The notes under the pieces are model-generated. The model was not told where the DNA came from. It worked only from the letters and a program-made list of their open reading frames with translations, and did no database searches. Made by a program: the position numbers and the translations under genes. Shown in pieces: positions 37,570-48,545 of a stretch of 64,000 nucleotides of DNA. The stretch comes from an uncultured Allobosea sp. (GTDB lineage Bacteria > Pseudomonadota > Alphaproteobacteria > Rhizobiales > Beijerinckiaceae). Location of the stretch: positions 1 to 64,000 of the forward strand of contig NZ_CAMFKW010000012.1 of assembly GCF_945957345.1 (NCBI RefSeq). Reading direction: 5' to 3'. Numbering within the stretch: position 1 is the first letter of the stretch; the number at the start of each line of letters is the position of its first letter.

Positions 37570-37595
37570 GGAACCCGGTCGATACTTCCGGCGTT
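37570..37595 (+). promoter_or_regulatory. EcfG promoter of the AI-2E transporter gene
   Basis: GGAAC (37570-37574), 17 bases, CGTT (37592-37595): an exact match to the EcfG consensus. It ends 50 bases before the next start codon and lies right after the polA stop, so the transporter gene has its own stress promoter. Confidence 0.8.
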
Positions 37596-37645
37596 GATCC
37601 CTCCGACGCGCCAGGGGGGCGCGGATAGCGCGTTGGAAGCATCCC

Positions 37646-38788
37646 ATGCTCAATTCGTCGGCCTGGAGGCCGTTTCCGCGCTACATGGCGGAGCCGGAAT
37701 CGGTGGAAGACAGCACGGAGGTCACGGCCTACGAGCATGACCTCATCGTCCGCTACGCCATCGTCGGCATTTTCGTCATCCTGGCGACGGCCTCGCTGGC
37801 CCTGACCAAGGTCATCGCCATGCCGGTCGTGGCGGGTGTCATCTTCGGCCTCGTGCTCGGCCCGCTCGTCGATGTGCTGGTACGCTACCGGGTGCCGCAG
37901 CATGCGGCTGCGGCGCTGGTCGTGCTATTCTTCATCGGCCTCCTGCTTGGCGCGATCGCGATCCTCGCCGTGCCGGTCGCCGGATGGAGCGACCAGGCCC
38001 CGGCCATGATGGCGGCGCTCCAGGGCAAGCTCGCCGGCGTCTTCGCCTTCATGGACGAATTCAAGCGCGGCATCGCCTCGATCACCGGCAAGGGCGCCGA
38101 GCTCAGCGTCTCCCAGGGCAATCCGCTCTTCGACATCGCGCTGACCTCCTCGGCAGCGGCCGGCGGCATGCTGATCTTCGTCGCGACGATCTATTTCTGG
38201 CTGGCGACCCGCCGTCATCTCAAGGCGCGGGTGCTCAGGCTCTGCCTCGGCCGGGGCGCACGCCGCTCGGCCGGCTCCTTCTTCGAGGAGATCGAAACCC
38301 GCGTTGCCCGCTATTTCGCGTTGGTGACCACGATCAATTTCGGCATGGGCGTCCTCACCATGGCGATCGCCTGGATCGCCGGCCTGCCCTTTCCGGTCTT
38401 CTGGGGCGCGCTCGCCTTCCTGCTCAACTATCTCGCCTTCATCGGCCCGATCTTCGTCGCGATCCTGCTTCTGGCCGGCGCCCTGCTCGATGCGCCCTCG
38501 ATCCTGGCGGCGCTCTGGCCAGCGGCGGCGTATTACGTGCTGCACCTGATCGAGGGCAACGCGGTCACGCCCGTCTTCGTCGGCAACCGGCTGACGATCT
38601 CGCCTTTCCTCGTCTTCATCGCCTTCATCTTCTGGCTCTGGCTCTGGGGGCCGGTCGGCGCCGTGCTCTCGACGCCGATCGTCATCGTCGCCATGGTGGC
38701 GCAGGAGGAATTCGCGCGCTATCGCCGCGAGAAGGCCAAGGCTGAGGCCGAGGAGGTGGAAACGGGCGGCGAAGCCAAGGCTGCCTGA
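37646..38788 (+). CDS. AI-2E family transporter (PerM-like)
   Basis: A 380-residue inner-membrane protein with about eight hydrophobic segments in the usual 3+5 arrangement. The family marks are GVIFGLVLGPLVDVLVRY near residue 70, FWGALAFLLNYLAFIGPIF near 250 and HLIEGNAVTPVFVGNRLTISPF near 300. The family has been linked to autoinducer-2 or ion efflux; the substrate here is open. A charged tail ends the protein. The exact EcfG promoter upstream makes it a likely general-stress gene. Confidence 0.9.
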   Translation: MLNSSAWRPFPRYMAEPESVEDSTEVTAYEHDLIVRYAIVGIFVILATASLALTKVIAMPVVAGVIFGLVLGPLVDVLVRYRVPQHAAAALVVLFFIGLLLGAIAILAVPVAGWSDQAPAMMAALQGKLAGVFAFMDEFKRGIASITGKGAELSVSQGNPLFDIALTSSAAAGGMLIFVATIYFWLATRRHLKARVLRLCLGRGARRSAGSFFEEIETRVARYFALVTTINFGMGVLTMAIAWIAGLPFPVFWGALAFLLNYLAFIGPIFVAILLLAGALLDAPSILAALWPAAAYYVLHLIEGNAVTPVFVGNRLTISPFLVFIAFIFWLWLWGPVGAVLSTPIVIVAMVAQEEFARYRREKAKAEAEEVETGGEAKAA

Positions 38789-38797
38789 TCGTCTCCC

Positions 38798-38822
38798 GGA
38801 ACAGAACCACGGGGCATGCGTT
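38798..38822 (+). promoter_or_regulatory. EcfG promoter of the DUF883/holin-family pair
   Basis: GGAAC (38798-38802), 16 bases, CGTT (38819-38822), an exact match. It lies 9 bases after the AI-2E transporter stop and 82 bases before the DUF883-like start. Confidence 0.85.
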
Positions 38823-38904
38823 GCCCGTTTAAGTGGTGGCCCTTGCGGTCGCCGCGCCTCCTCGCCACCATCCGAATTCCAATCAGCGACAGGACGATAC
38901 TGCC

Positions 38905-39264
38905 ATGGCCACCACGACATCCGCGAAACGACAGGCTGCCGCCGCCGCCAAACGCGTGAAGGCTGAGGTCGAGGCCGGCGCCGAGGATGTCGCGGCCGAG
39001 GCGCGCCAGGCGGGAGCTCGCGCCAAGCGCCAGGCGAGCGCGCTGGAAGACACCCTGACGCGCAGTGCCGAGGACATCGTCGCCACCGTTGGCGAGCGCC
39101 TGCGCGCCGTCGGCGTCGACACCGACAAGATGGTCGACGTCGCCAAGGAGCAGGCGACCGAGCTGCAGAAGCTGATCGAGGACGAGATTCGCGAGCGGCC
39201 GCTGCGCGCGCTCGGCCTTGCGGCGGCGGTCGGTCTCTTCGTCGGCTTCCTGTCGGCGCGCTGA
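38905..39264 (+). CDS. DUF883/YqjD-like membrane-anchored protein
   Basis: A 119-residue protein. Residues 1-90 are a long, Ala/Lys/Glu-rich helix (AEVEAGAEDVAAEARQAGAR). The C-terminus carries the RPLRALGLAAAVGLFVGFLSAR anchor typical of DUF883/ElaB/YqjD proteins (quoted region: PLRALGLAAAVGLFVGFL). Members tether inactive ribosomes to the inner membrane in stationary phase in E. coli. ATG 38905 follows the EcfG promoter, which fits a stress or stationary-phase role. The next gene starts three bases after the stop. Confidence 0.87.
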   Translation: MATTTSAKRQAAAAAKRVKAEVEAGAEDVAAEARQAGARAKRQASALEDTLTRSAEDIVATVGERLRAVGVDTDKMVDVAKEQATELQKLIEDEIRERPLRALGLAAAVGLFVGFLSAR

Positions 39265-39266
39265 CC

Positions 39267-39692
39267 ATGTTCGGGGGGATTGGATCCTTCATCGCCGCGG
39301 AGGTATCCGGGGTGGTGAAGCGCAATGTCATCGTCTACGGCCTCTTCGGCCTCGCTGCCCTGCTTATGCTCTGTGCCGGCGGCTATGCCTTGAACGCCCT
39401 GCATACAGTCCTGGTGCTGCGCTACGGCGCGGTTGCCGCGAGTCTCTGGATCGCCGGCGGCTTGTTTGCGTCGGGGCTCCTGGCGATCTGCATCGCGCTC
39501 TTCGTCAAGAGCCGGCGTCGGCCGCCGCGTCCCGTTGCGACGGCGGCTCTCGCCGCGGCGCCGCTGGCGGCTAAGCTCATCGGCTCACGCCTGAGCTGGC
39601 GCATGGCGCTGGCTGGCGGCATCGTCGTTCTCGGCGCGATTCTGGGCCGCCAGATCGTCGCGGGCGGCGATGATGACGATGCGGAAGCCTGA
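39267..39692 (+). CDS. Phage-holin-family (DUF1469-like) membrane protein
   Basis: A 141-residue membrane protein with two central helices (VIVYGLFGLAALLMLCAGGYAL and LWIAGGLFASGLLAICIALFV, each longer run split here) and a third near 115. The arrangement fits the Phage_holin_3_6/DUF1469 family of YqjE-like proteins, which are commonly encoded after DUF883 proteins (yqjD-yqjE in E. coli). It ends in an acidic tail, DDDDAEA. It is co-transcribed with the DUF883-like gene from the EcfG promoter. Confidence 0.8.
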   Translation: MFGGIGSFIAAEVSGVVKRNVIVYGLFGLAALLMLCAGGYALNALHTVLVLRYGAVAASLWIAGGLFASGLLAICIALFVKSRRRPPRPVATAALAAAPLAAKLIGSRLSWRMALAGGIVVLGAILGRQIVAGGDDDDAEA

Positions 39693-39771
39693 TTCCGCAC
39701 CGATTCACGGCATGGACGGAGCATGTCTTTTTACATAGGGATGTCGCCATGCGTCCCTTAACAAGACCTGC

Positions 39772-41163
39772 ATGTCCGATCAGGTGAGGCCTCGCTCCCG
39801 CTTTCCGATCCCGGTCTTCCCGGCCATCGGCGCGCGCTTTCGCGCGGCTACGACCACGATCGTTGCGATCGCGGTCGTGGCGCTCGCCATCGTGCTCGCG
39901 GCCTGGATCAATTGGCAGGCGCGTCAGGCCGCGGACCTGGTCTCCCACGCGATCGAGATCCGCGAGCGGGCCGAGCGCTTCCTCGGCCGGATGCGCGATG
40001 CCGAAACCGGACAGCGCGGCTTCCTGTTGACCGGGGAAGCGGATTATCTCGATCCCTTCACCGAGGGCCGCGCCGCCGCCGGCCCCGAGCTCGACATCCT
40101 TGCAGCCCTGGTCGATTCCGATCCCGCTCAGAAGGAGCGGGTCGCATCGCTGCGCGCGGATATGGCCACAAAATTCACGGAGCTCGACCGGACGGTCTCG
40201 CTGGAGCGTGCGGGCCGCCGGCCGGAAGCGCTGGCGCTCGTCCGCAGCGACGCCGGCACGGCCGCGATGGACCGGTTGCGCGGCACCGTCCAGGCCATCC
40301 AGCAGAGCGAGAACATCCGCCTGATGTCGCTCTACCGCCGGGAGGAGCATCGCCGCCTCTGGGGCAGCACCGGCATCGTCGTTGCGCTCGCTGGCCTCGC
40401 CTTCGCCGCCTGGCAGCAGTTGCGCCGGCGGCAGCGCCGCAGCAATGCATTGGCGATCACCAATGCCGAGCTTGAGCAGATTGTGAGCGAGCGCACGCGC
40501 CAGCTCGAAAGCGAGCGCCTGCGCATCGAGGCGCTGCTGCGCGACGTCAATCACCGCGTCGGCAACAACCTCGCCATGGTTTCGGCGCTGCTCAACGTAC
40601 AGGGTCGGCAGACACGCGAGCCCGCGGTAAAGGCGGCGCTGGCACAGGCCCAGTCGCGCATCCAGGCGATCGCCGCCGGTCAGCGGCGCCTGCGCCTCGA
40701 TATCGAGACCGACGAGATCGATGCGCGGCCCTATATGGAAGACCTGCTGGCCGAAATCGGCAAGTCGGCCGAAGGCCGGCCGATCCGGATCGATCTCGAC
40801 ATGGAAGCGATCAGGCTGCCCGGCCGCGACGCCGTCTCCTTCGTCGTCATCGTCAACGAACTCGTGACCAACGCCATCAAGCACGCCTTCCCGGACGGCA
40901 TGACGGGGCGGATCGTCATCCGTTTCGTGCCCACCGATCATGAAGGCGAGCCCGCACTTGCGCTGTCGATCGAAGATGATGGCGTCGGCATGCCTGCGGA
41001 GGCGGCGAGCAAGGGGCTGGGGCAGACCGTGATCGCCAGCCTGCTGCGCAGCATGCGGGCGACGATGACCTCGCAGCCGCTCCATCCCGACCAGGCCGAG
41101 CGACCGGGCACAAGGGTGACGATCGTTTTTCCGAAGCGGGAAGCGCCCTGGGCCCAATCCTGA
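39772..41163 (+). CDS. CHASE3-type HisKA_2 sensor histidine kinase
   Basis: A 463-residue membrane sensor. Helix 1 (residues about 26-48) and helix 2 (about 198-215) flank a CHASE3 periplasmic domain with GRMRDAETGQRGFLLTGEADYL. The cytoplasmic part has the HisKA_2 H-box LRDVNHRVGNNLAMVSALL near residue 260 and a complete ATPase: N-box NELVTNAIKHAF, G1 EDDGVGMP and G2 GLGQTVI. Kinases of this class feed PhyR-type general-stress signalling. It is convergent with the response-regulator gene, the stops five bases apart. Confidence 0.9.
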   Translation: MSDQVRPRSRFPIPVFPAIGARFRAATTTIVAIAVVALAIVLAAWINWQARQAADLVSHAIEIRERAERFLGRMRDAETGQRGFLLTGEADYLDPFTEGRAAAGPELDILAALVDSDPAQKERVASLRADMATKFTELDRTVSLERAGRRPEALALVRSDAGTAAMDRLRGTVQAIQQSENIRLMSLYRREEHRRLWGSTGIVVALAGLAFAAWQQLRRRQRRSNALAITNAELEQIVSERTRQLESERLRIEALLRDVNHRVGNNLAMVSALLNVQGRQTREPAVKAALAQAQSRIQAIAAGQRRLRLDIETDEIDARPYMEDLLAEIGKSAEGRPIRIDLDMEAIRLPGRDAVSFVVIVNELVTNAIKHAFPDGMTGRIVIRFVPTDHEGEPALALSIEDDGVGMPAEAASKGLGQTVIASLLRSMRATMTSQPLHPDQAERPGTRVTIVFPKREAPWAQS

Positions 41164-41168
41164 AAAAG

Positions 41169-41549
41169 TCAGCCCTGCACCGTCTTGAGGGCGGGCATGG
41201 CGAGCGCGCTTTTCACGAATGCGGCGACCTCGCGCGTCGAGAAGGGCTTGCGCAGGAAGCGGACGCCGCGCAGCGCGGCCGGCACTTCATGTGGCGCCGA
41301 GCCCGAGACGAAGGCGAAGGGCGTGCCGATGTCCTGGAGCGCGCTCGCGACGTCGAAGGTCTTGCCGCCGACCACGTCGATATCGAGCAGGGCGCAGGCA
41401 AGCGGCTTCGCCGTCATCCGACGGGCTTCGGCCACGGATTCGACGACGATCAACTCGACACCATCGCCGAGCTGGTCGGCCACGGCGCTCTCGATGTCCA
41501 TCGCGATGAACGGATCGTCTTCTACGATGAGTACGCGGATATCAGCCAT
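41169..41549 (-). CDS. Single-domain response regulator
   Basis: A 126-residue receiver without an output domain. The acidic pair is VLIVEDDPFIAMDIE, the phosphoacceptor Asp is in CALLDIDVVGG near residue 57, and the Lys is in RFLRKPFS. The switch region PFAFVSGSA replaces the Thr-containing stretch of standard receivers and is reminiscent of the FAT-GUY receivers (SdrG, MrrA) that act in alphaproteobacterial stress phosphorelays, though not an exact match. It has an exact EcfG promoter and lies tail to tail with a HisKA_2 kinase, a likely partner. Confidence 0.88.
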   Translation of the reverse strand: MADIRVLIVEDDPFIAMDIESAVADQLGDGVELIVVESVAEARRMTAKPLACALLDIDVVGGKTFDVASALQDIGTPFAFVSGSAPHEVPAALRGVRFLRKPFSTREVAAFVKSALAMPALKTVQG

Positions 41550-41592
41550 CGACCGGCTCTCTCACTCACTGCAATCTCTGTTACGCGATCTC

Positions 41593-41617
41593 AACGTAAC
41601 AGGATTGGCGAAGTTCC
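41593..41617 (-). promoter_or_regulatory. EcfG promoter of the response-regulator gene
   Basis: Read on the minus strand: GGAAC (41617-41613), 16 bases, CGTT (41596-41593), exact. It ends 43 bases before the start codon at 41549. Confidence 0.85.
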
Positions 41618-41710
41618 TGCTTCGGCACGCCAGCATGACCGAAAGCTTGGAATTTGAGTCGAATTTGACCGGTCAAGGTTAGCAAAAGGTAATCCTGCCC
41701 CCATTTTGGA

Positions 41711-42208
41711 TCAGCGTCGGCGGCCTCCCGAGCCCGACAAGGTCAGCTCGAACTGCGTCACCCCGACGGCGGCATTGAAGCCGCGCACCGTTTGCGCCAC
41801 CCGCGGCTGCAGCGTGACCTTGTTGTCCTCACCTCCGACAAGCGTCGATCCGCCGGGGGTCCCGGTTTGGGTGGGGGCTGCATAAGTTCCGTTCAACGCC
41901 CCCAGGGGCGCCCGCGCGTAAGGCCCGTAGACATGCCACGCCATCCGCGTTCCGCGGATCGAGCCGAGGTCGATGCCATACTGGCGAACGATGCCGATAT
42001 AGTGCTGTGCAGGGCCTCGGCGTGGCCTGAAGCGGCAATCGAGTGGCTTCTGCGCCTTGGCGATGGCGGCAAAGCCGGCGCCCACGGTGCAGGAGAGACG
42101 TCCGGTCGGTGGACCACCGGCCTGTGCCGCAGCGGGCTCGTGCATTCCTATGAGGCCAGCGAGGGCAAGGACAGTTAGGCAGGAACGGGTATGCCCAAGG
42201 CTCATCAC
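41711..42208 (-). CDS. DUF992 family exported protein
   Basis: A 165-residue protein with a signal peptide (CLTVLALAGLIGMHEPAAAQA). The mature part GRLSCTVGAGFAAIAKAQK, LDCRFRPRRGPAQHYIG and YGIDLG matches DUF992, a family known mainly from Rhizobiales with no assigned role. ATG 42208 or the next ATG 42205 can serve as start. An exact EcfG promoter lies 27 bases upstream. Predicted to be periplasmic or surface located. Confidence 0.9.
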   Translation of the reverse strand: MMSLGHTRSCLTVLALAGLIGMHEPAAAQAGGPPTGRLSCTVGAGFAAIAKAQKPLDCRFRPRRGPAQHYIGIVRQYGIDLGSIRGTRMAWHVYGPYARAPLGALNGTYAAPTQTGTPGGSTLVGGEDNKVTLQPRVAQTVRGFNAAVGVTQFELTLSGSGGRRR

Positions 42209-42235
42209 GAATGCTCCTGGTGAACTGGCGGTACG

Positions 42236-42260
42236 AACGCCCCAAGAAACCCACAGTTCC
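42236..42260 (-). promoter_or_regulatory. EcfG promoter of the DUF992 gene
   Basis: On the minus strand: GGAAC (42260-42256), 16 bases, CGTT (42239-42236), exact. It forms a divergent pair with the plus-strand EcfG site seven bases to the right. Confidence 0.85.
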
Positions 42261-42267
42261 TAAGTAG

Positions 42268-42293
42268 GGAACCAAGGGAGAGTTTGTAGCGTT
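42268..42293 (+). promoter_or_regulatory. EcfG promoter facing the small gene at 42310
   Basis: GGAAC (42268-42272), 17 bases, CGTT (42290-42293), exact. Transcription would begin near 42300, leaving only about ten bases before ATG 42310, or about twenty before ATG 42322. Confidence 0.75.
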
Positions 42294-42309
42294 GGCGTTT
42301 CATCTTGGC

Positions 42310-42558
42310 ATGGGAATGTCGATGGCCGTGAGTCGTCTGCTTGGGGAAACCCCAACAATAATCGATCAGGAGTTCCTGACGGCACTGCCGCCGTTCTGGG
42401 AGCTGGAGGATTTGATCGCCGCCGGTCTCGATTGCGAGGCCGCCCTGGCCGTGATGGCCGCGCGCCGCAGCGGCCCCCGCCTCGTCGACGGTGTCGTGCC
42501 GAGCGGCGGAGAACAGAGCCTCCTGCAGCGCTTCGGATCATCCGACAACACCCACTGA
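42310..42558 (+). CDS. Small uncharacterised protein under EcfG control
   Basis: An 82-residue soluble, acidic protein with no family I recognise. Its middle (EFLTALPPFWELEDLIAAGLDCEAALAVMAARRSG, quoted in part as PPFWELEDLIAAGLD) looks helical and is coded with the strong third-position GC of real genes. ATG codons at 42310, 42316 and 42322 are all in frame. Choosing 42310 would make a very short leader. It is convergent with the extensin-like gene, the stops six bases apart. Confidence 0.6.
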   Translation: MGMSMAVSRLLGETPTIIDQEFLTALPPFWELEDLIAAGLDCEAALAVMAARRSGPRLVDGVVPSGGEQSLLQRFGSSDNTH

Positions 42559-42564
42559 GCCTCT

Positions 42565-43353
42565 TTACTGGCAGAAGTGCGACGCCCGCGAGCGCCGCTC
42601 CTGGATGTCGACATGCAGGTGATTGGCATGGGCGGCATCCGAACCCGGCCCGAGCGTGGTCATGAAGGCGCCGCAGGCGGATTGCCTTATCGCCTCGAGA
42701 AAGCGGTTCTGCGCCAGACCTTGCGGCTTCTCGACCGCGACCTGCAACGCCTCGGAGCCACTCCCCAGCTTGAAGGCGAAGATATCGAGCGCCTGACCGG
42801 TCGCATGCTCGCTGACCGGGCCGGCCGAGGCGCGGTTGCGCCGCCGGCATTCATGGCCGCCGCCGACACGCAAGGCCACGAGATCCCGCTCGAAATGGCC
42901 GCGCGCCAGGGGCTGGACGCTGCGGTCGAGCCAACCGGCAAGCGTGCTGGCCATGGCACAGCTCAGCAGGGGCGGGGGCTCGAAGGCCACGACCGCGGGG
43001 CCGCCTTGTCCCCGGATGGCAAGCGCCTCGACACGAACGGGGTCGCTGATCCGGCAGGCAGGATCGCTGTCCTGCGGGGCGGGACTGGCCGCCGTTACCC
43101 GGTTGCCGGGAAGCGCCGCCAGTGCCGAGAGGCATGAAGCCTGAACGGGCGGCGTCGCTGCTACGCTCGGGATCGAAGGCATGGCCGTCGCGGCAGGCGG
43201 CTCTGCCTTGCCGGCTCTATCCGGCACGGACGGCCGCAATTCGGGCGGGCGCGGCGGAGGCTTCGGTGTTGAAATCGGCGCGGTAGTCGGAGCTGCCGCC
43301 GCGACGGCCGGCGCAAGCCCGATGCCGATGGCGATGATCAGGGGAGCGAGAAT
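42565..43353 (-). CDS. Extensin-like C-terminal domain protein, start unresolved
   Basis: The frame encodes a secreted protein with a hydrophobic export segment (LIIAIGIGLAPAVAAAA), a Pro-rich linker (TPKPPPRPPELRP) and a C-terminal extensin-like domain (PF06904): SCAMASTLAGWLDR, RNRASAGPVSEHATGQALDI-like text and HANHLHVDI, resembling LAS/VanY-like peptidases with SEHATGQALDI and HLHVD metal-site motifs. There is no ATG, GTG or TTG between the end of the upstream 54-residue gene and the export segment. ATT 43353 or CTG 43341 could serve; GTG codons inside would cut off the signal. A cell-wall role is likely. Confidence 0.75.
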   Translation of the reverse strand: MLAPLIIAIGIGLAPAVAAAAPTTAPISTPKPPPRPPELRPSVPDRAGKAEPPAATAMPSIPSVAATPPVQASCLSALAALPGNRVTAASPAPQDSDPACRISDPVRVEALAIRGQGGPAVVAFEPPPLLSCAMASTLAGWLDRSVQPLARGHFERDLVALRVGGGHECRRRNRASAGPVSEHATGQALDIFAFKLGSGSEALQVAVEKPQGLAQNRFLEAIRQSACGAFMTTLGPGSDAAHANHLHVDIQERRSRASHFCQ

Positions 43354-43409
43354 CCGTTCGCCCGGGCGGCGACGGGCGCTTGCCCGGCGAAACCCGCCGG
43401 AACGCCGCG

Positions 43410-43574
43410 TTAGCTGTCCAGAGCCGAGGCGCTGACGATCGTGAGACCCGTCAGGCCGGCAAGGACCAAGGACAGGATGTCCGCACCCGGTGCGCCCGGT
43501 TGCACCATCCCGGAGAAGAGGGCTGCCCCGATCGATAGCGCCGCGATCGCGGCCGAGAAGCAGGTCGTCGCCAT
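43410..43574 (-). CDS. Small hydrophobic protein (54 residues) under EcfG control
   Basis: Two hydrophobic helices (CFSAAIAALSIGAALFSGMV and ILSLVLAGLTGLTIVSASAL) joined by PGAPGAD. Third-position GC is high in this frame, while the overlapping extensin frame is Arg/Gly-rich nonsense here, so this small gene is likely real. ATG 43574 has GGGGAGGG upstream and lies 46 bases after an exact EcfG promoter. No family recognised; predicted inner-membrane stress peptide. The extensin-like gene follows on the same strand. Confidence 0.65.
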   Translation of the reverse strand: MATTCFSAAIAALSIGAALFSGMVQPGAPGADILSLVLAGLTGLTIVSASALDS

Positions 43575-43620
43575 GGTCCACGCCCTCCCCAACTGCAAAC
43601 GAAACTGTCATTCATCGCGG

Positions 43621-43645
43621 AACGCATGATCATCATGCGGGTTCC
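43621..43645 (-). promoter_or_regulatory. EcfG promoter, near-palindromic, of the 54-residue gene
   Basis: On the minus strand: GGAAC (43645-43641), 16 bases, CGTT (43624-43621), exact. The same DNA read on the plus strand gives GGAAC (43619-43623), 16 bases, GGTT (43640-43643), the same form as the nepR-ecfG promoter. The site may therefore fire both ways. Confidence 0.8.
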
Positions 43646-43654
43646 TGCTCGGCA

Positions 43655-43690
43655 AGAAAAAAGGCCCGCGGTTTGCACGCCGCGGGCCTT
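43655..43690 (-). terminator. Intrinsic terminator of phyR
   Basis: On the minus strand the 11-bp stem (43690-43680 with 43671-43661), loop of eight bases, is followed by a run of U from the A-tract at 43655-43662. It stands 26 bases after the phyR stop. Confidence 0.88.
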
Positions 43691-43716
43691 GCTCGTCTTC
43701 GCACGAGGTCGAAGCG

Positions 43717-44511
43717 TCAGGCGGCCTTGCGGCCGGCGCGGCGATCGAAGAACAGGGCCTGGCTGATCGCCGCCTTCACGGCCTCCGGCTGGAACGGCTT
43801 GGTGATCAGGAAGGCCGGCTCCGGCCGGTCGCCGGTCAGGAGGCGCTCGGGATAGGCGGTGATGAAGATCACCGGCACGTCGATCGAGGACAGGATCTCG
43901 TTGACGGCGTCGAGGCCCGAGCTGCCATCGGCGAGCTGGATATCGGCGAGCACCAGGCCCGGCCGCTTCTTGGCGACGAGGGCGATGGCCTCGCGCTGCG
44001 TCCGGGCGACGCCGGTGACGCTGTGGCCGAGCTCCTCGACCATCGTCTCGATGTCGAGCGCGATGATCGGTTCGTCTTCGATGATCAGCACCTCGGTCGC
44101 GACCTGCTCGGCGATCTCCTGCCCGGCGGTCTGGATCAGCGCGGAGGCTTCGGCCGCCGTGATGTCCATCACCTTGGCGACGTCGTCGAGCGGGAAGCCC
44201 TCGACCGTCCGCAGCAGGAAGGCCTGGCGCGGGCGCGGCGTCAGCGCTTCCAGATTGCGCTCGGCCGGCGGGCGCGAGAGCTCGACGACCGGCGCGGCGG
44301 CATCGACGCTGGCCGAGGACCACAGCTTCAGGAAGGTCTTGTAGAGGCCGACGCGGGGATCGATGTCGCGTGGGAAGCCGCTGGGATCGGCGACGAGCGC
44401 TTCGAGCATGGCGACGACATAGGCGTCGCCGCTCGGCTGGCTTCCGCAGAGCGCCCGCGCGAAGCGGCGCAGATACGGAAGATGAGGCGCAATTTCTTTT
44501 GCAATCGACAT
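43717..44511 (-). CDS. phyR: General stress response regulator PhyR (anti-anti-sigma)
   Basis: A 264-residue protein with a sigma-factor-like N-terminal domain (residues 1-130: LPYLRRFARALCGSQPSGDAYV, PRQAFLLRTVEGF) and a receiver domain (138-264) with IIEDEPIIALDIE, phosphoacceptor D190 in LVLADIQLADG and Lys in LITKPFQP. Phosphorylated PhyR binds NepR and so frees EcfG. ATG 44511 is used because the sigma-like domain begins at MSIAKEIAPH. It is divergent from nepR-ecfG, the classical arrangement. Confidence 0.97.
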   Translation of the reverse strand: MSIAKEIAPHLPYLRRFARALCGSQPSGDAYVVAMLEALVADPSGFPRDIDPRVGLYKTFLKLWSSASVDAAAPVVELSRPPAERNLEALTPRPRQAFLLRTVEGFPLDDVAKVMDITAAEASALIQTAGQEIAEQVATEVLIIEDEPIIALDIETMVEELGHSVTGVARTQREAIALVAKKRPGLVLADIQLADGSSGLDAVNEILSSIDVPVIFITAYPERLLTGDRPEPAFLITKPFQPEAVKAAISQALFFDRRAGRKAA

Positions 44512-44588
44512 GGACGCGTCCCTTTTAGCGTGCTGGAATAATGGCTTAGCCTGCGCAAGAGACAAGGAATTTATTTTTGCGAGATCGT

Positions 44589-44613
44589 GGAACCTTGTTG
44601 GGAGAGGCCGGTT
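44589..44613 (+). promoter_or_regulatory. EcfG-type autoregulatory promoter of nepR-ecfG
   Basis: GGAAC (44589-44593), 16 bases, GGTT (44610-44613): one mismatch to the consensus. It lies 135 bases before nepR ATG 44749. Autoregulation of nepR-ecfG by EcfG is known in other Alphaproteobacteria. Confidence 0.7.
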
Positions 44614-44748
44614 ATTAAGGCGTATTGGTGTCGCCATCGCGACGTGGCTTCGGCATCGCCGGCAGGAAGTGGCAAGACCAGAGATGGTGGAATTCGAGAA
44701 TGCGGGATCGGCTGGAAAAGCCGACCTGTCGGTGGTGCGAGGGCTGAG

Positions 44749-44970
44749 ATGAATAGGTCGGATGTAGCGATGACGGAACCGGACGATCCCGATGAAGGCT
44801 TCGATCTGGTTCTGGACCCAAAGGTGCAGGAATCCATCGGCCGCTCTCTCAAGGCCCATTACGACGACATCGTGAACGCACCCGTGCCCGACAAGTTTCT
44901 CGTGCTGCTGGCGCAGCTTGAGGCGACCGAGCAGCGTGCAGCTGGAGCGTCGCGCGATGACTCCCAGTGA
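44749..44970 (+). CDS. nepR: Anti-sigma factor NepR
   Basis: A 73-residue protein with the NepR core DPKVQESIGRSLKAHYDDIV followed by PVPDKFLVLLAQLE, which binds EcfG or, after signalling, phospho-PhyR. An earlier in-frame start at 44587 would put the EcfG promoter inside the gene, so ATG 44749 (or 44770, giving 66 residues) is preferred. The 3' end overlaps ecfG by 14 bases. Confidence 0.93.
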   Translation: MNRSDVAMTEPDDPDEGFDLVLDPKVQESIGRSLKAHYDDIVNAPVPDKFLVLLAQLEATEQRAAGASRDDSQ

Positions 44971-45571
44971 TACAGTCCCTGCGAACGGCACCGAAACTCT
45001 GGCGCAGGAACGCCGGACCGAAGATTTCAAGGACGGCCTGATCCGCGAAATTCCGAATCTGCGCGCGTTCGCGGCCTCGCTTTCGGGCTCCATGCAACTG
45101 GCCGACGACCTCGTGCAGGACACTCTGTTGAAGGCTTGGGGCAATTCCGACAAGTTCGAACCGGGCACCAGCCTGCGCGCCTGGCTCTTCACCATCCTGC
45201 GCAACACCTATTACTCGCTCTACCGCAAGCGCGGCCGCGAGGTGCAGGACAGCGAAGGGACCTATGCCGAGCGCATGGCGACCCACGGCAACCAGGAAAG
45301 CCATCTCGACCTTGCCGATTTCCGCAAGGCGCTGGCGAAGCTCCCGGAGGAGCAGCGCGAGGTGCTGATCATGGTCGGCGCCACCGGGCTGTCCTATGAG
45401 GAGGCGGCGGAAATCTGCGGCGTGGCGATCGGGACGATCAAGAGCCGGGTCAACCGTGCCCGCACGAAACTCGCCGAATTGCTGTCGATCGGCAGCGTCG
45501 ATGATCTCGGACCGGGCCGCACCAACGCGGCTGCGATGCAGAGAGTTGGTTCCGAACCCGTTGGATCCTGA
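44957..45571 (+). CDS. ecfG: ECF sigma factor EcfG
   Basis: A 204-residue ECF15-type sigma factor. Region 2 is LRAFAASLSGSMQLADDLVQDTLLKAW with KFEPGTSLRAWLFTILRNTYYS; region 4 is LPEEQREVLIMVGATGLSYEEAAEI and GTIKSRVNRARTKL. It reads GGAAC...CGTT promoters of the general stress response. ATG 44957 is taken, since the upstream ATG 44918 would overlap nepR more. Its stop shares one base with the next kinase start (TGATG). Confidence 0.96.
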   Translation: MTPSDTVPANGTETLAQERRTEDFKDGLIREIPNLRAFAASLSGSMQLADDLVQDTLLKAWGNSDKFEPGTSLRAWLFTILRNTYYSLYRKRGREVQDSEGTYAERMATHGNQESHLDLADFRKALAKLPEEQREVLIMVGATGLSYEEAAEICGVAIGTIKSRVNRARTKLAELLSIGSVDDLGPGRTNAAAMQRVGSEPVGS

Positions 45572-47223
45572 TGCGTTTGCGGCGTTTCAGCACTGTCAGG
45601 GCGCGTCTGCTGGCTATGCTGGTCGCGATCGCCGTTCCCATCGCCTGCGCATCGGCCTTTGCCGCCTATGCGACCTATCGCGCCGCTGTCGTCGCGATCG
45701 AGGCGGCGCAGACGCGCGCCGTCGATGATTTCGCCGTGCGGACGCGCGTCTGGTATCGCGGCATGTCGCGCGCGCTCCTCGCCTTCGGTACCACAGCGGC
45801 CGAGGTGGGGCTCGATACGGCCGGATGCCGAAATGCCGGCGTCACGGCGATGGAGCGATCCGGAGGCTTTCGCGGCTTTCTGCTGCGCGGTGCGGATGGG
45901 CAGGTTTGCGCCGGTGCGCTCGATCCGGATCTTTCCGCCGCGATGCTGGACGGCTTCGCGAAGCAGCTTGCGAGCCGGCCCGCGGTCGGGATGTGGAACG
46001 GCGCCAATCTCGGCCGGATGCGTTACGATCAAGTCACTGCGGGCGGGCGGCGCTATCTCGCCATCCTGGCATCGGATTTTCCGAGCGGGAGCGGCGGTTT
46101 GCAGCAGGCCCTGCTGCTGACGGCTCCCGAATTGCTGGAGAACGTCTTCGATCTCGGCGAGGACGGCCAGGTCCTGAACGTTGCCCTGATCGGGCGGGAT
46201 GTCGGCGTCGTCGCCAGCCGTGGCGACAACCGCGACATGACCTGGCTACCGCGCTTGGACCGCGTTCCCGACAGGCATGCTCGCTGGACAGCTTCGAGCC
46301 GCGCCGGAGACGACAATGTCTATGCCGCCCGGATGGTCGCCGAGCCGGATTTCTATATCGTCGCGAGCTTCGATGACCGGCCGGCGGAGGCTGCCCGGCT
46401 GCAATTCATCGTGCTGCTTCTGGCGCCGCTCCTCACCTTGGCCCTGCTCTGCCTCGTCTGCATGAGGGCGATCGAGAAACACTGCCTGCGCTGGCTGCGG
46501 GGCATCGAAATGGCTGCCCGGTCGCGGACCTCGAGCAACCGGGTCAGGGCCGTGGTGGCGGACGGCATGCCCGGCGACATCCGCAGCGTCGCGGAAGCTT
46601 TTAACGGTATGGTCGAGGAGCAGGAGGTGCGGCAGCGCCGCCTCCAGACGGCGCTCGACGACAACCGCTTTCTCGTCCGCGAGCTGCATCACCGGGTCAA
46701 GAACAGCCTGCAGGTCGTGCAGAGCTATATCGGGCTGAGCAAACGCGATCATCGCGACGAGGCAAGGCTTGCGCTCGCCGATGCGGAATGCCGGGTGCAT
46801 GTTCTGTCGGCCGCCTATCGCTTCACGCTTGCCGATGGCGAGATGCAGCCGGTCCGCGTCGACCTTTTCCTCGACGACGTCGTCACCATGATCTCGAATC
46901 TGATCCGTGGCCGCGACCAATGGGTGGCGGGCCGGATCGAGACGGCGGCGACGCTCTCCGTCGACCGCATCATCCCGCTCGGCTTTCTCGTCGCGGATGT
47001 CGCATCGAGGGCTCTGCGCAGCACGCCCGGCGTGCGGATCGTCGTGGAGGTTGTGGATGTCGATGCTTCCGCGATCGAGGTTGGCCTCGAAGCCGATCGC
47101 GACATCCAGCACAGCGCTCCGCCCCGGCTTTTCGCAGGCTTGCTCACACAGATCGAAGCCGTGCAGACGCAGGAGCCCCACGGTCGCAGCCTTGGCCGTT
47201 GGCGGATCGCTCACGACTCCTGA
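45571..47223 (+). CDS. HisKA_2-type sensor kinase with degenerate ATPase domain
   Basis: A 550-residue membrane sensor coupled to ecfG. An N-terminal helix (LLAMLVAIAVPIACASAFAAY) and a second helix near residue 278-300 (IVLLLAPLLTLALLCLVCM) enclose a large extracytoplasmic domain. A HAMP-like linker leads to the H-box LVRELHHRVKNSLQVVQSYI near residue 370. In the ATPase region, LGFLVADVASRALRS stands where NELVTNA is expected, and no DNGxG or GLGL box is visible. It may act as a phosphatase, a histidine phosphotransfer partner or a regulator of another kinase. The context suggests input to PhyR. Confidence 0.85.
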   Translation: MRLRRFSTVRARLLAMLVAIAVPIACASAFAAYATYRAAVVAIEAAQTRAVDDFAVRTRVWYRGMSRALLAFGTTAAEVGLDTAGCRNAGVTAMERSGGFRGFLLRGADGQVCAGALDPDLSAAMLDGFAKQLASRPAVGMWNGANLGRMRYDQVTAGGRRYLAILASDFPSGSGGLQQALLLTAPELLENVFDLGEDGQVLNVALIGRDVGVVASRGDNRDMTWLPRLDRVPDRHARWTASSRAGDDNVYAARMVAEPDFYIVASFDDRPAEAARLQFIVLLLAPLLTLALLCLVCMRAIEKHCLRWLRGIEMAARSRTSSNRVRAVVADGMPGDIRSVAEAFNGMVEEQEVRQRRLQTALDDNRFLVRELHHRVKNSLQVVQSYIGLSKRDHRDEARLALADAECRVHVLSAAYRFTLADGEMQPVRVDLFLDDVVTMISNLIRGRDQWVAGRIETAATLSVDRIIPLGFLVADVASRALRSTPGVRIVVEVVDVDASAIEVGLEADRDIQHSAPPRLFAGLLTQIEAVQTQEPHGRSLGRWRIAHDS

Positions 47224-47244
47224 AGCGCGCTGAATTCAAGCGAG

Positions 47245-47296
47245 TGCGCGGCCGTCCAGGCTGGCCCCTTTCGAGGCTTGTCGGGACGGCCGCGCA
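47245..47296. terminator. 13-bp inverted repeat between convergent genes
   Basis: TGCGCGGCCGTCC (47245-47257) and its exact reverse complement (47284-47296) are 26 bases apart. The repeat separates the kinase gene from the convergent small exported-protein gene and may end both transcripts. No T-run is present. Confidence 0.5.
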
Positions 47297-47321
47297 TTCG
47301 CGGGGGAACAGGAAATCGGCG

Positions 47322-47603
47322 TTAACGGACGATATGCGTGACCGGCCCGTCGGCCATCGCCTGCTGCGACGGCGAGGCGATGGCGCGCTTCGCGGCGCTG
47401 CGCGAGCGGTCGGAGCGGTCGACGGCGGCGAACTGGACGGTGGCGGCAGCACCGTGCTCGGCCTTGGCGAGAGCGGTGCTCGTCGAACTCTGGTCGGCCG
47501 GCATCTGAAGCCCGGCCCCCAGGGTCATGCCGGACACGGCCGTACCCATGAGGCCGAAGAAGACGATGGCGCGCACGGCCGGCGCAAGGCTGGGCTTGAG
47601 CAT
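47322..47603 (-). CDS. Small exported or membrane protein under EcfG control
   Basis: A 93-residue protein with an N-terminal hydrophobic segment (AIVFFGLMGTAVSGMTLGAG) and a polar, Ala/Ser/Arg-rich remainder (DRSDRSRSAAKRAIAS). No family recognised. ATG 47603 follows an exact EcfG promoter by 48 bases. The hydrophobic stretch may be a signal peptide or anchor; the mature part looks disordered. Confidence 0.65.
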   Translation of the reverse strand: MLKPSLAPAVRAIVFFGLMGTAVSGMTLGAGLQMPADQSSTSTALAKAEHGAAATVQFAAVDRSDRSRSAAKRAIASPSQQAMADGPVTHIVR

Positions 47604-47651
47604 GGATGTCTCCAGGGCTTGCCGGCCGATTGACCGGCTTTCGGGATTGAA

Positions 47652-47677
47652 AACGCCGGAAATCCCGCTTCGGTTCC
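47652..47677 (-). promoter_or_regulatory. EcfG promoter of the small exported-protein gene
   Basis: On the minus strand: GGAAC (47677-47673), 17 bases, CGTT (47655-47652), exact. It is divergent from the Crp/Fnr gene promoter 38 bases away. Confidence 0.82.
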
Positions 47678-47715
47678 CCTGAAGGCGCTCGGTTGTGTAC
47701 GGCCCCCGTCGCCGC

Positions 47716-47741
47716 GGAACGCGGAGCGCCTTCGCCGCGTT
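47716..47741 (+). promoter_or_regulatory. EcfG promoter of the Crp/Fnr gene
   Basis: GGAAC (47716-47720), 17 bases, CGTT (47738-47741), exact. It ends 48 bases before ATG 47790. Confidence 0.82.
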
Positions 47742-47789: not shown

Positions 47790-48545
47790 ATGAACATCGC
47801 CAGCCGGCCGGGGCGCCTCGGCACACCCTGCCTTGCCTGCCCCTTGCGGCTCAAACCCGCTTTCCGGGACAAGACCGATGACGAAATCCGCTTCATCCAG
47901 ACGATGAAGACCGATCATCGTGTCGTGCGTGCCGGGCAGGACATCATTCATCCAGGCCAGGAGGATGCGGAGCTCTACACGCTCTTCTCGGGCTGGGCCT
48001 TCCGCTACAAGTCGCTGCCGGACGGGCGGCGCCAGATCCTCAACTTCCTGCTGCCGGGGGATCTCGTCGGCCTGCAGGCTTCGCTGCTCGCGGCGGCCGA
48101 GCACGGCATCGAGGCTCTGACCGATGTCGAGCTCTGTGTCTTTCCGCGCAAGCGCCTCTGGGACCTGTTCGTGCGCATGCCGACGCTGGCCTACGAAGTC
48201 TCCTGGCTCGGCTCGCGCGAGGAGTGCATGGTCGACGACAACCTCACTTCGGTCGGTCAGCGCAATGCCGGCGAACGCCTCGCCGCGTTGATCATCTCGC
48301 TGCATCACCGCCTCGACGCACTCGGACTCGTCACCAATGATGGTTTCGATTTCCCGCTCTCGCAGCAGCAGATCGCCGATGCGCTCGGTCTGTCGCTCGT
48401 CCACACCAGCAAGACCTGGTCGCGTTTGCGCCGGGAAGGATTGTTCTCGCTGGCGGGCGGAAGGCTCACGCTGCTGAACCCGCATCTCACGGCGCGGATG
48501 GCGGCGGCCTATGAGAGGATCGTGGCGCCAAGGCCGCTGATCTGA
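47790..48545 (+). CDS. Crp/Fnr family transcription regulator
   Basis: A 251-residue regulator with a cyclic-nucleotide-binding-like domain (VVRAGQDIIHPGQEDAELY, LNFLLPGDLVGLQASLL) and a C-terminal winged helix with FPLSQQQIADALGLSLVHTSKTWSRLRREG (quoted in part as LSQQQIADALGLSLVH). Cys14 and Cys17 (CLAC) near the start might bind a metal, but the four-Cys pattern of Fnr is absent. An exact EcfG promoter upstream makes it a second-tier regulator in the stress cascade. Confidence 0.9.
   Translation: MNIASRPGRLGTPCLACPLRLKPAFRDKTDDEIRFIQTMKTDHRVVRAGQDIIHPGQEDAELYTLFSGWAFRYKSLPDGRRQILNFLLPGDLVGLQASLLAAAEHGIEALTDVELCVFPRKRLWDLFVRMPTLAYEVSWLGSREECMVDDNLTSVGQRNAGERLAALIISLHHRLDALGLVTNDGFDFPLSQQQIADALGLSLVHTSKTWSRLRREGLFSLAGGRLTLLNPHLTARMAAAYERIVAPRPLI

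Follow-up and report, generated by a model that had tools for sequence, protein, structure and literature searches.

Introduction

We set the phyR-nepR-ecfG locus of an uncultured Allobosea sp., which is crowded with promoters of the EcfG type, against the closest described systems; it lies in 64,000 nucleotides of contig NZ_CAMFKW010000012.1 (positions 1 to 64,000, the whole stretch analysed, hereafter the window). In a review of such loci, both the phyR and the nepR-ecfG units are driven by the general stress response (GSR), and a promoter of this kind on phyR is described as usual (PMC8103513). In Caulobacter crescentus, the entericidin gene CC_3473, near sigT, carries the motif and is SigT-dependent under carbon starvation (PMC3073932); PhyK of the same organism is a phosphotransferase fed by MrrA, and the FATGUY motif has been named and given a role (PMC5964349). 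In Sphingomonas melonis a Pak-SdrG-PhyT-PhyR relay has been demonstrated, in which PhyT combines HRxxN with a degenerate ATPase domain, and the genes for SdrG and the kinases are scattered (PMC5898713). With respect to promoters, TGTT, CATT and GGTT are natural variants of the CGTT box in Sphingopyxis granuli TFA, where replacing CGTT with TGTT or CATT reduces transcription in vitro (PMC7083833), and the EcfG consensus of Methylobacterium extorquens admits GGTT (PMC4814048).

The original prediction for the window, made from its letters and open reading frames (ORFs) alone, was that the general stress regulators sit inside an unusually dense cluster of their own EcfG promoters. Global sigma factors are commonly pictured with their targets spread over the chromosome.

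Results

EcfG-type promoters in the window

A pattern scan of the 64-kb window found eight exact GGAAC-N16/17-CGTT sites, all in the 37570..47741 cluster, at the places and on the strands predicted, and no others; the predicted near match at 44589 was recovered in a relaxed scan as GGAAC-N16-GGTT, with one mismatch. Shuffling the window gives an expectation of 0.58 exact sites, and none of 100 shuffles attained eight. Judged against the ORFs and start codons of the window, all nine sites are, as had been claimed, intergenic, and end 16-135 bases before a correctly oriented start codon, two starts being possible for some cluster genes. The conserved GGAAC-N16/17-CGTT upstream of start codons is the sequence expected of an EcfG-dependent promoter, and the locus has the parts of a GSR locus: a PhyR with sigma-like and receiver parts, NepR beside an EcfG-type extracytoplasmic function (ECF) sigma factor, an HRxxN protein nearby, and an EcfG-type site on nepR-ecfG. 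The genes and promoters, in order, are as follows (aa, amino acids).

37570..37595, + strand: EcfG-type promoter, N17, exact; AI-2E transporter
37685..38788 (alternative ATG 37646), + strand: AI-2E family transporter (PF01594, E 8e-36)
38798..38822, + strand: EcfG-type promoter, N16, exact; DUF883 and, in a putative operon with it, the holin-like and CHASE3 kinase genes
38905..39264, + strand: DUF883 protein (PF19029 above cut-off; ElaB model far below cut-off)
39267..39692, + strand: small membrane-like 'holin' protein (no Pfam match at E 0.01)
39772..41163, + strand: CHASE3 - HisKA_2/HWE sensor kinase (Pfam; best NCBIfam match PhyK, below cut-off)
41169..41549, - strand: single-domain response regulator (PF00072, PRK13435 and PhyR receiver models, all below cut-off)
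41593..41617, - strand: EcfG-type promoter, N16, exact; response regulator
41711..42208, - strand: DUF992 protein, GTG start (PF06186, E 3e-27)
42236..42260, - strand: EcfG-type promoter, N16, exact; DUF992
42268..42293, + strand: EcfG-type promoter, N17, exact; small protein (88-aa gene)
42310..42558, + strand: small protein (88-aa gene), start 42310 or 42322 (no Pfam or NCBIfam match; gene-like codon score)
42565..43611, - strand: Extensin-like_C protein, frame open to 43611, start uncertain (PF06904, E 3e-43)
43410..43574, - strand: small protein of 54 aa (62 aa from TTG 43598), overlapping the extensin-like open frame (no family match)
43621..43645, - strand: EcfG-type promoter, N16, exact; 62-aa gene and extensin-like gene
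43720..44511, - strand: phyR, anti-anti-sigma factor (NF006623 PhyR family above curated cut-off, E 1e-113)
44589..44613, + strand: variant EcfG-type promoter, GGAAC-N16-GGTT, one mismatch; nepR-ecfG
44749..44970, + strand: nepR, anti-sigma factor (PF18557, E 5e-14)
44957..45571, + strand: ecfG, ECF sigma factor (PF04542, PF08281)
45571..47223, + strand: PhyK/PhyT-like HisKA_2 protein (PF07568, no HATPase at E 0.01; PhyK the best NCBIfam match, below cut-off)
47322..47603, - strand: 93-aa protein (no Pfam match, no convincing NCBIfam match)
47652..47677, - strand: EcfG-type promoter, N17, exact; 93-aa protein
47716..47741, + strand: EcfG-type promoter, N17, exact; Crp/Fnr regulator
47790..48545, + strand: Crp/Fnr family regulator (PF00027, PF13545; FnrL and FixK models below cut-off)

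The sites and targets agree with those first listed, to which we add that the minus-strand site at 43645 serves both the 54-62 aa protein and the Extensin-like_C gene, unnamed earlier. The cluster adjoins polA. As the gaps between them are short, the DUF883, holin-like and CHASE3 kinase genes may form an operon, in which case the DUF883 promoter would also serve the other two.

The promoters of DUF992 and the 88-aa gene (42236-42293) diverge from one another, their -35 boxes lying 7 bp apart. Such back-to-back pairs, at most 15 bp apart, were seen in 23 of the 31 Bosea-type loci (25 in all, 22 of them at 7-10 bp, not all confirmed as DUF992/88-aa), and tight pairs are also present in loci of Phenylobacterium, other Caulobacterales, Cucumibacter, Pelagibacterium and Methylobacterium, with other genes downstream where these were read. 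Because two polymerases would hardly fit there together, mutual exclusion at the paired promoters is possible.

Sites in the rest of the genome

The genome (5.20 Mb in 110 contigs, G+C 66%) was searched with the exact pattern, and through the stretches around its sites, rather than with a weight matrix. It holds 87 exact sites, against 100 for a reversed control pattern; as there is therefore no raw genome-wide excess, raw counts were dropped as evidence, and the signal lies in the place of the sites. No other 10.2-kb stretch has more than three, as compared with eight in the cluster, so that the equal density elsewhere that would have told against the prediction was not found, and 5000 uniform placements of 87 sites gave a maximum of six per 10.2 kb. 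The genome's own density of 0.155 exact sites per 10.2 kb agrees with the predicted chance expectation of about 0.15 per 10 kb or so. Of the 79 sites outside the cluster, 48 are promoter-like, in that a called gene in the matching orientation begins no more than 300 bases downstream (a class applied to the EcfG pattern and to no control pattern); another 17 fall within called ORFs, and the remaining 14 between them. This split is approximate because genes outside the window were called with a small codon-usage script which overlooks some short genes (in the window, DUF992 and the 62-aa gene). We take most exact sites in the genome to be real promoters, of which the cluster would then hold about 8 in 56.

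Smaller groups of two to four sites lie elsewhere in the genome, at L168 (G000:C27), L167 (G000:C26), G000:C10:25916-34242 and L152 (G000:C13:26900-26962), and those on C27 and C10 have seeming same-order counterparts in the relative G012. Relatives have other spots dense in the exact pattern, at 62-65% G+C, which may be promoters or a matter of composition (L199 and L200 in G012; L238-L240 in G010); four exact sites fall within 3.6 kb at G012:C1:4187952-4191580.

Conservation across Bosea-type loci

The PhyR of the window is 97% identical to those of L031 and L069 and 96% to that of L041, and the nearest named phyR loci are Bosea. In four genomes of the same genus, phyR is identical to the gene of L031, L032, L033 or L036, all of them Bosea loci. 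For each orthologue, the region running from 300 bases before the gene to 40 bases into it was scanned for its best site in 31 distinct Bosea-type loci, after four genus loci had been removed as duplicates. The 31 include the outgroup L042, which was left out of the regulator and nepR figures, its hits lying inside phyR and far from ecfG, respectively.

The cluster is syntenic in most of these loci, and most of its sites are kept. The DUF883 site is exact in 23/23 loci, that of the AI-2E transporter in 16 of the 18 in which the gene was found, that of the response regulator in 27/29 and that of DUF992 in 23/28. Among the small proteins, the 88-aa gene has an exact site in 23 of the 24 loci where its protein could be matched (in 11 of these the match covers less than 0.6 of the query); the 62-aa gene, found in 20/31 loci, has one in 19 of those 20; and the 93-aa gene, found in 28/31, has one in 24 of the 28, with at most one mismatch in all 28. 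Five neighbouring genes that lack a site in the window provide a control, with 0/124 exact and five with one mismatch: the holin-like gene (0/24, one row lacking upstream DNA), the CHASE3 kinase (0/24), the HisKA_2 protein (0/31, four with one mismatch), a methyltransferase gene (0/28) and a GGDEF gene (0/17, one with one mismatch).

When sites that deviate from the pattern at no more than one base are compared between loci, identity is 34-65% in the spacers and 31-44% in the 12-base flanks (42-56% in those of nepR). The boxes are thus not kept through mere closeness of sequence, since spacers and flanks have diverged around them. Box identity itself is 90-100% (82% for the nepR -10 box), a value near 100% being partly built in by keeping only sites with at most one mismatch, and for this reason the exact-site counts are the fair measure. 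This conservation strengthens the observation beyond its original statement.

Promoters of the switch genes

The nepR-ecfG site has at most one mismatch in 30/30 loci, with TGTT as the -10 box in 14, CGTT in nine, GGTT in six (including the window) and CATT in one. A damped nepR-ecfG promoter is likely in the loci with TGTT or CATT, because transcription in vitro drops with these boxes in Sphingopyxis.

By comparison, phyR has no exact EcfG site in any of the 31 Bosea-type loci; within 250 bases upstream of it, the 30 besides the window yield 0 exact sites and one with a single mismatch. phyR was accordingly rejected as an EcfG target in Bosea. Over the same 250 bases, an exact site precedes phyR in 15 of the 34 loci sampled from the family's other genera (and a site with one mismatch in a further 12), in 6/20 of a class sample (nine more), in 19/19 Caulobacterales, and in 11/13 loci of Devosiaceae, Rhizobiaceae and others, and in 0/32 Sphingomonadales. 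The best site upstream of phyR in the 32 Sphingomonadales loci (among L045-L108) has two mismatches in 30/32, which could be chance level or a variant box.

Signalling proteins

The CHASE3 kinase keeps HRxxN (as HRVGN), the N box and the G box in 24/24 rows. The protein encoded after ecfG has HRVKN in 31/31 rows and a degenerate ATPase part, the N-box Asn being absent in 31/31 and DxGxG present in 1/31; the product of 45571..47223 thus shows the traits of a PhyT-type protein, with HRxxN kept, the ATPase degenerate and the gene at the phyR locus. The single-domain regulator keeps the acidic pair, the Asp and the Lys, and reads FVSGS in 29/29 true rows, on which ground it was rejected as a FATGUY protein of the SdrG and MrrA kind, judged by what we take to be the letters of that motif.

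Clustering in other Alphaproteobacteria

We counted the sites up to 6 kb from phyR on each side, leaving out the phyR/nepR gap, and compared the totals with the expectation from each genome's own count; reversed-control counts were taken over the whole stretch, the expectations use rounded genome sizes, and some fetched stretches are shorter than 12 kb, at contig ends. Loci were taken from 20 of the 37 further genomes of the genus in which phyR gave a hit, from 34 of the 63 such genomes in other genera of the family (these 34 representing 33 genera) and from 20 of the 25 such genomes in the class; in the class, 108 of the 134 genomes searched gave no hit at E 1e-30. The 21 genus loci hold 136 sites outside the gap, against 4.6 expected and five for the reversed control; the 34 family loci hold 72, against 6.0 expected and six for the control, with none in eight of the 34. 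No site lies outside the gap in 5 of the 20 class loci.

Mean counts within 6 kb of phyR, with the gap included, are 8.0 in Phenylobacterium (n=5), 7.7 in other Caulobacterales (n=7), 5.5 in Bosea-type loci (n=13), 4.0 in Devosiaceae (n=5), 3.6 in Brevundimonas (n=7), 3.0 in Rhizobiaceae and relatives (n=6) and 0.94 in Sphingomonadales (n=32), and because these differ between lineages the clustering is lineage-dependent. All 12 loci of Phenylobacterium and the other Caulobacterales have 6-10 sites per 12 kb, and Brevundimonas has 2-5 (L101 was assigned to Caulobacterales by ourselves, and L101 and L110 look like near-duplicates).

The content also varies. Caulobacterales loci carry entericidin and glycine-zipper lipoprotein genes (Pfam for one of each), with diacylglycerol-kinase-like and DUF883-like proteins whose labels were read from sequence; an entericidin-like ORF stands behind an EcfG-type site in the matching place in 3/5 Caulobacter, Phenylobacterium and Brevundimonas-type loci (Pfam for one). 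In Cucumibacter (L059), an AI-2E relative (tblastn) and a DUF883-like protein (PF19029 just below cut-off) form a divergent pair near phyR.

A double-phyR island in another genus of the family

The genome G231 belongs to another genus of the family and has 117 sites, 21 of which are packed into the 19.6 kb between two inward-facing phyR genes (L235 and L208; G231:C2:1451500-1483200). An ECF sigma gene lies behind each phyR; gene calling gave a nepR at just one of the two ends, and the left phyR came out in two frames. G190, of the same genus, has 21 sites in 20.6 kb (L236 and L237; G190:C89:112000-139000), and the G+C of both islands is 66%. Pfam matches in the G231 island include DUF3309, a low-affinity iron permease, a glycine zipper, a short-chain dehydrogenase, Ku, a mechanosensitive channel, CHASE3-HWE and PAS-HisKA_2 kinases and a response regulator, with a holin family just below cut-off. 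Both in Bosea (38905-39692) and in this genus (L208:8665-9518; labels for G231 partly read from sequence), an EcfG-type site near phyR precedes a DUF883-like gene and, after it, a holin-like one.

Discussion

The central claim of the original prediction, that the stress regulators sit inside a dense cluster of EcfG-type promoters, is borne out, and the majority of those promoters persist across Bosea-type loci; two of its words need qualification. The promoters are the regulators' 'own' in the case of nepR-ecfG, through the variant site, and not in that of phyR. The clustering is 'unusual' within this genome and not across the class, given the means for Phenylobacterium and other Caulobacterales and the 21-site islands. 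What is plain from the loci compared is the anatomy of the island and its conservation. On the strength of its promoters and their orthologues, we regard the Bosea phyR-nepR-ecfG cluster as very probably a general-stress regulon island under EcfG control, a confidence that does not extend to the relay discussed below.

Such an island would couple the PhyR-NepR-EcfG partner switch to at least seven further transcription units transcribed by EcfG itself. Stress signals would reach PhyR through HisKA_2/HWE proteins, a plausible route being the CHASE3 kinase (39772-41163), the single-domain regulator (41169-41549) and the degenerate PhyT-like protein (45571-47223). Phosphorylated PhyR would then remove NepR from EcfG, and RNA polymerase bearing EcfG would turn to the consensus promoters of the envelope genes, the small-protein genes and the regulator, with read-through from DUF883 perhaps contributing to kinase expression. 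EcfG would also act on its own nepR-ecfG operon, probably more weakly, and phyR would stand outside the feedback loop. The variant nepR-ecfG promoter and the lack of a phyR promoter suggest a loop wired unlike the textbook one. Further, we infer that candidates for a kinase - regulator - phosphotransferase - PhyR relay are encoded in one cluster, which would make the locus a compact candidate for a complete stress phosphorelay.

Several points weigh against these interpretations. Over the whole genome, the pattern does not outnumber its reversed control. The conservation counts are neither independent nor unbiased, as the loci are related and the genes were picked for having a site in the window, and the near-complete identity of the boxes owes something to the choice of sites. 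The Crp/Fnr site is exact in only 12/27 loci, such that the crp promoter is unsupported as an old part of the cluster. The excess in the class sample is modest (25 sites outside the gap in 20 loci, against 3.3 expected and six for the control), and CC_3473 of C. crescentus was not SigT-dependent under osmotic stress (PMC3073932). 'Weakened' may not apply to the window's own GGTT box, given that the M. extorquens consensus admits it. As for the relay, the place of the regulator is a guess, because the FATGUY letters of SdrG and MrrA are absent from it, and EcfG control of the CHASE3 kinase rests on an assumed read-through across two genes.

Beyond Bosea, we lean, if only slightly, towards a rule of genome organization whereby Alphaproteobacteria repeatedly gather EcfG targets round phyR-nepR-ecfG, with content that varies by lineage, up to 21 promoters in about 20 kb in one genus and candidates for a whole relay in Bosea. 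The explanation that competes best with such a rule is that of an ordinary neighbourhood, in which an auto-regulated locus and chance stress-gene neighbours have been inherited as a syntenic block, the promoters being real and their closeness functionless. We consider this a possible account, since the block is syntenic in most Bosea-type loci, the 48 other promoter-like sites are dispersed over the genome, Sphingomonadales have about one site per 12 kb, and 8/34 loci of the family genera and 5/20 of the class have no site outside the gap. Drift alone is, however, unlikely to explain why Caulobacterales, Devosiaceae and several genera of the family have clusters too, made up of other genes, and the AI-2E/DUF883-like pair of Cucumibacter has been rearranged yet remains near phyR.

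Closeness might alternatively be a benefit in itself, if targets near ecfG meet fresh sigma factor first or share a supercoiling domain, such that the cluster fires earlier. Sigma factors are freely diffusing proteins, and most promoter-like EcfG sites lie far from the locus, which render this unlikely, even with clusters recurring in several lineages and with EcfG remaining scarce if the nepR-ecfG promoter is weak. Acquisition in one piece of a mobile stress island is less likely still: the block of co-regulated genes is compact, and the G231/G190 island is bounded by two inward-facing phyR genes, as such an origin might lead one to expect, but the block in the window adjoins polA and is syntenic across most Bosea-type loci, and no integrase or transposase appeared among the proteins put to Pfam, a subset of the ORFs. 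Chance in a genome of 66% G+C, or another ECF factor with the same boxes, could appeal to the genome-wide parity with the reversed control and is scarcely credible in view of the density of the sites, their intergenic place and the 0/124 at control genes, chance being excluded by their conservation in orthologues.

With the regulon island and the tentative wider rule as our preferred readings, recurrence of the cluster with different genes makes any benefit of proximity to the controller, be it in timing, shared inheritance or feedback, testable. The rule, which is plausible, would if true cover a global sigma factor and not merely local regulators. The Bosea loci also provide a shortlist of probable EcfG targets kept in many of them, namely DUF992, the extensin-like protein and the three small proteins.

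Comparison with known systems

In the titles, opening lines of abstracts and text sections examined on EcfG and PhyR loci, with subscription papers mostly outside our coverage, we found no description of a regulon cluster around phyR, and a search for work on the proximity of regulators to their targets yielded nothing of use. The regulon of EcfG1 and EcfG2 in S. granuli TFA shares the promoter GGAAC-N16-CGTT, and differs in comprising 79 units, with no mention of clustering at the locus in the text examined (PMC7083833). The C. crescentus sigT-nepR-phyR-phyK locus likewise has an EcfG-type (SigT) motif on a near neighbour, CC_3473 (PMC3073932), whereas the targets at C. crescentus and other Caulobacterales loci are entericidin, glycine-zipper lipoprotein, diacylglycerol-kinase-like and DUF883-like genes.

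Much of the locus as reviewed is found again in Bosea: the three genes at one locus, nepR-ecfG divergent from phyR, an adjoining HRxxN histidine kinase, and an EcfG-type promoter on nepR-ecfG (PMC8103513). Bosea differs in having eight further EcfG-type promoters on both sides, in a nepR-ecfG -10 box that is not CGTT in 21/30 loci, and in a phyR without an EcfG promoter, the departure here being that the review has both units driven by the GSR. The S. melonis relay, finally, is matched by an HRxxN HisKA_2 protein with a degenerate ATPase at the phyR locus, a single-domain regulator and a separate intact kinase, and differs from the Bosea arrangement in that the candidates of the latter, with a regulator lacking the FATGUY motif, lie together within 8 kb.

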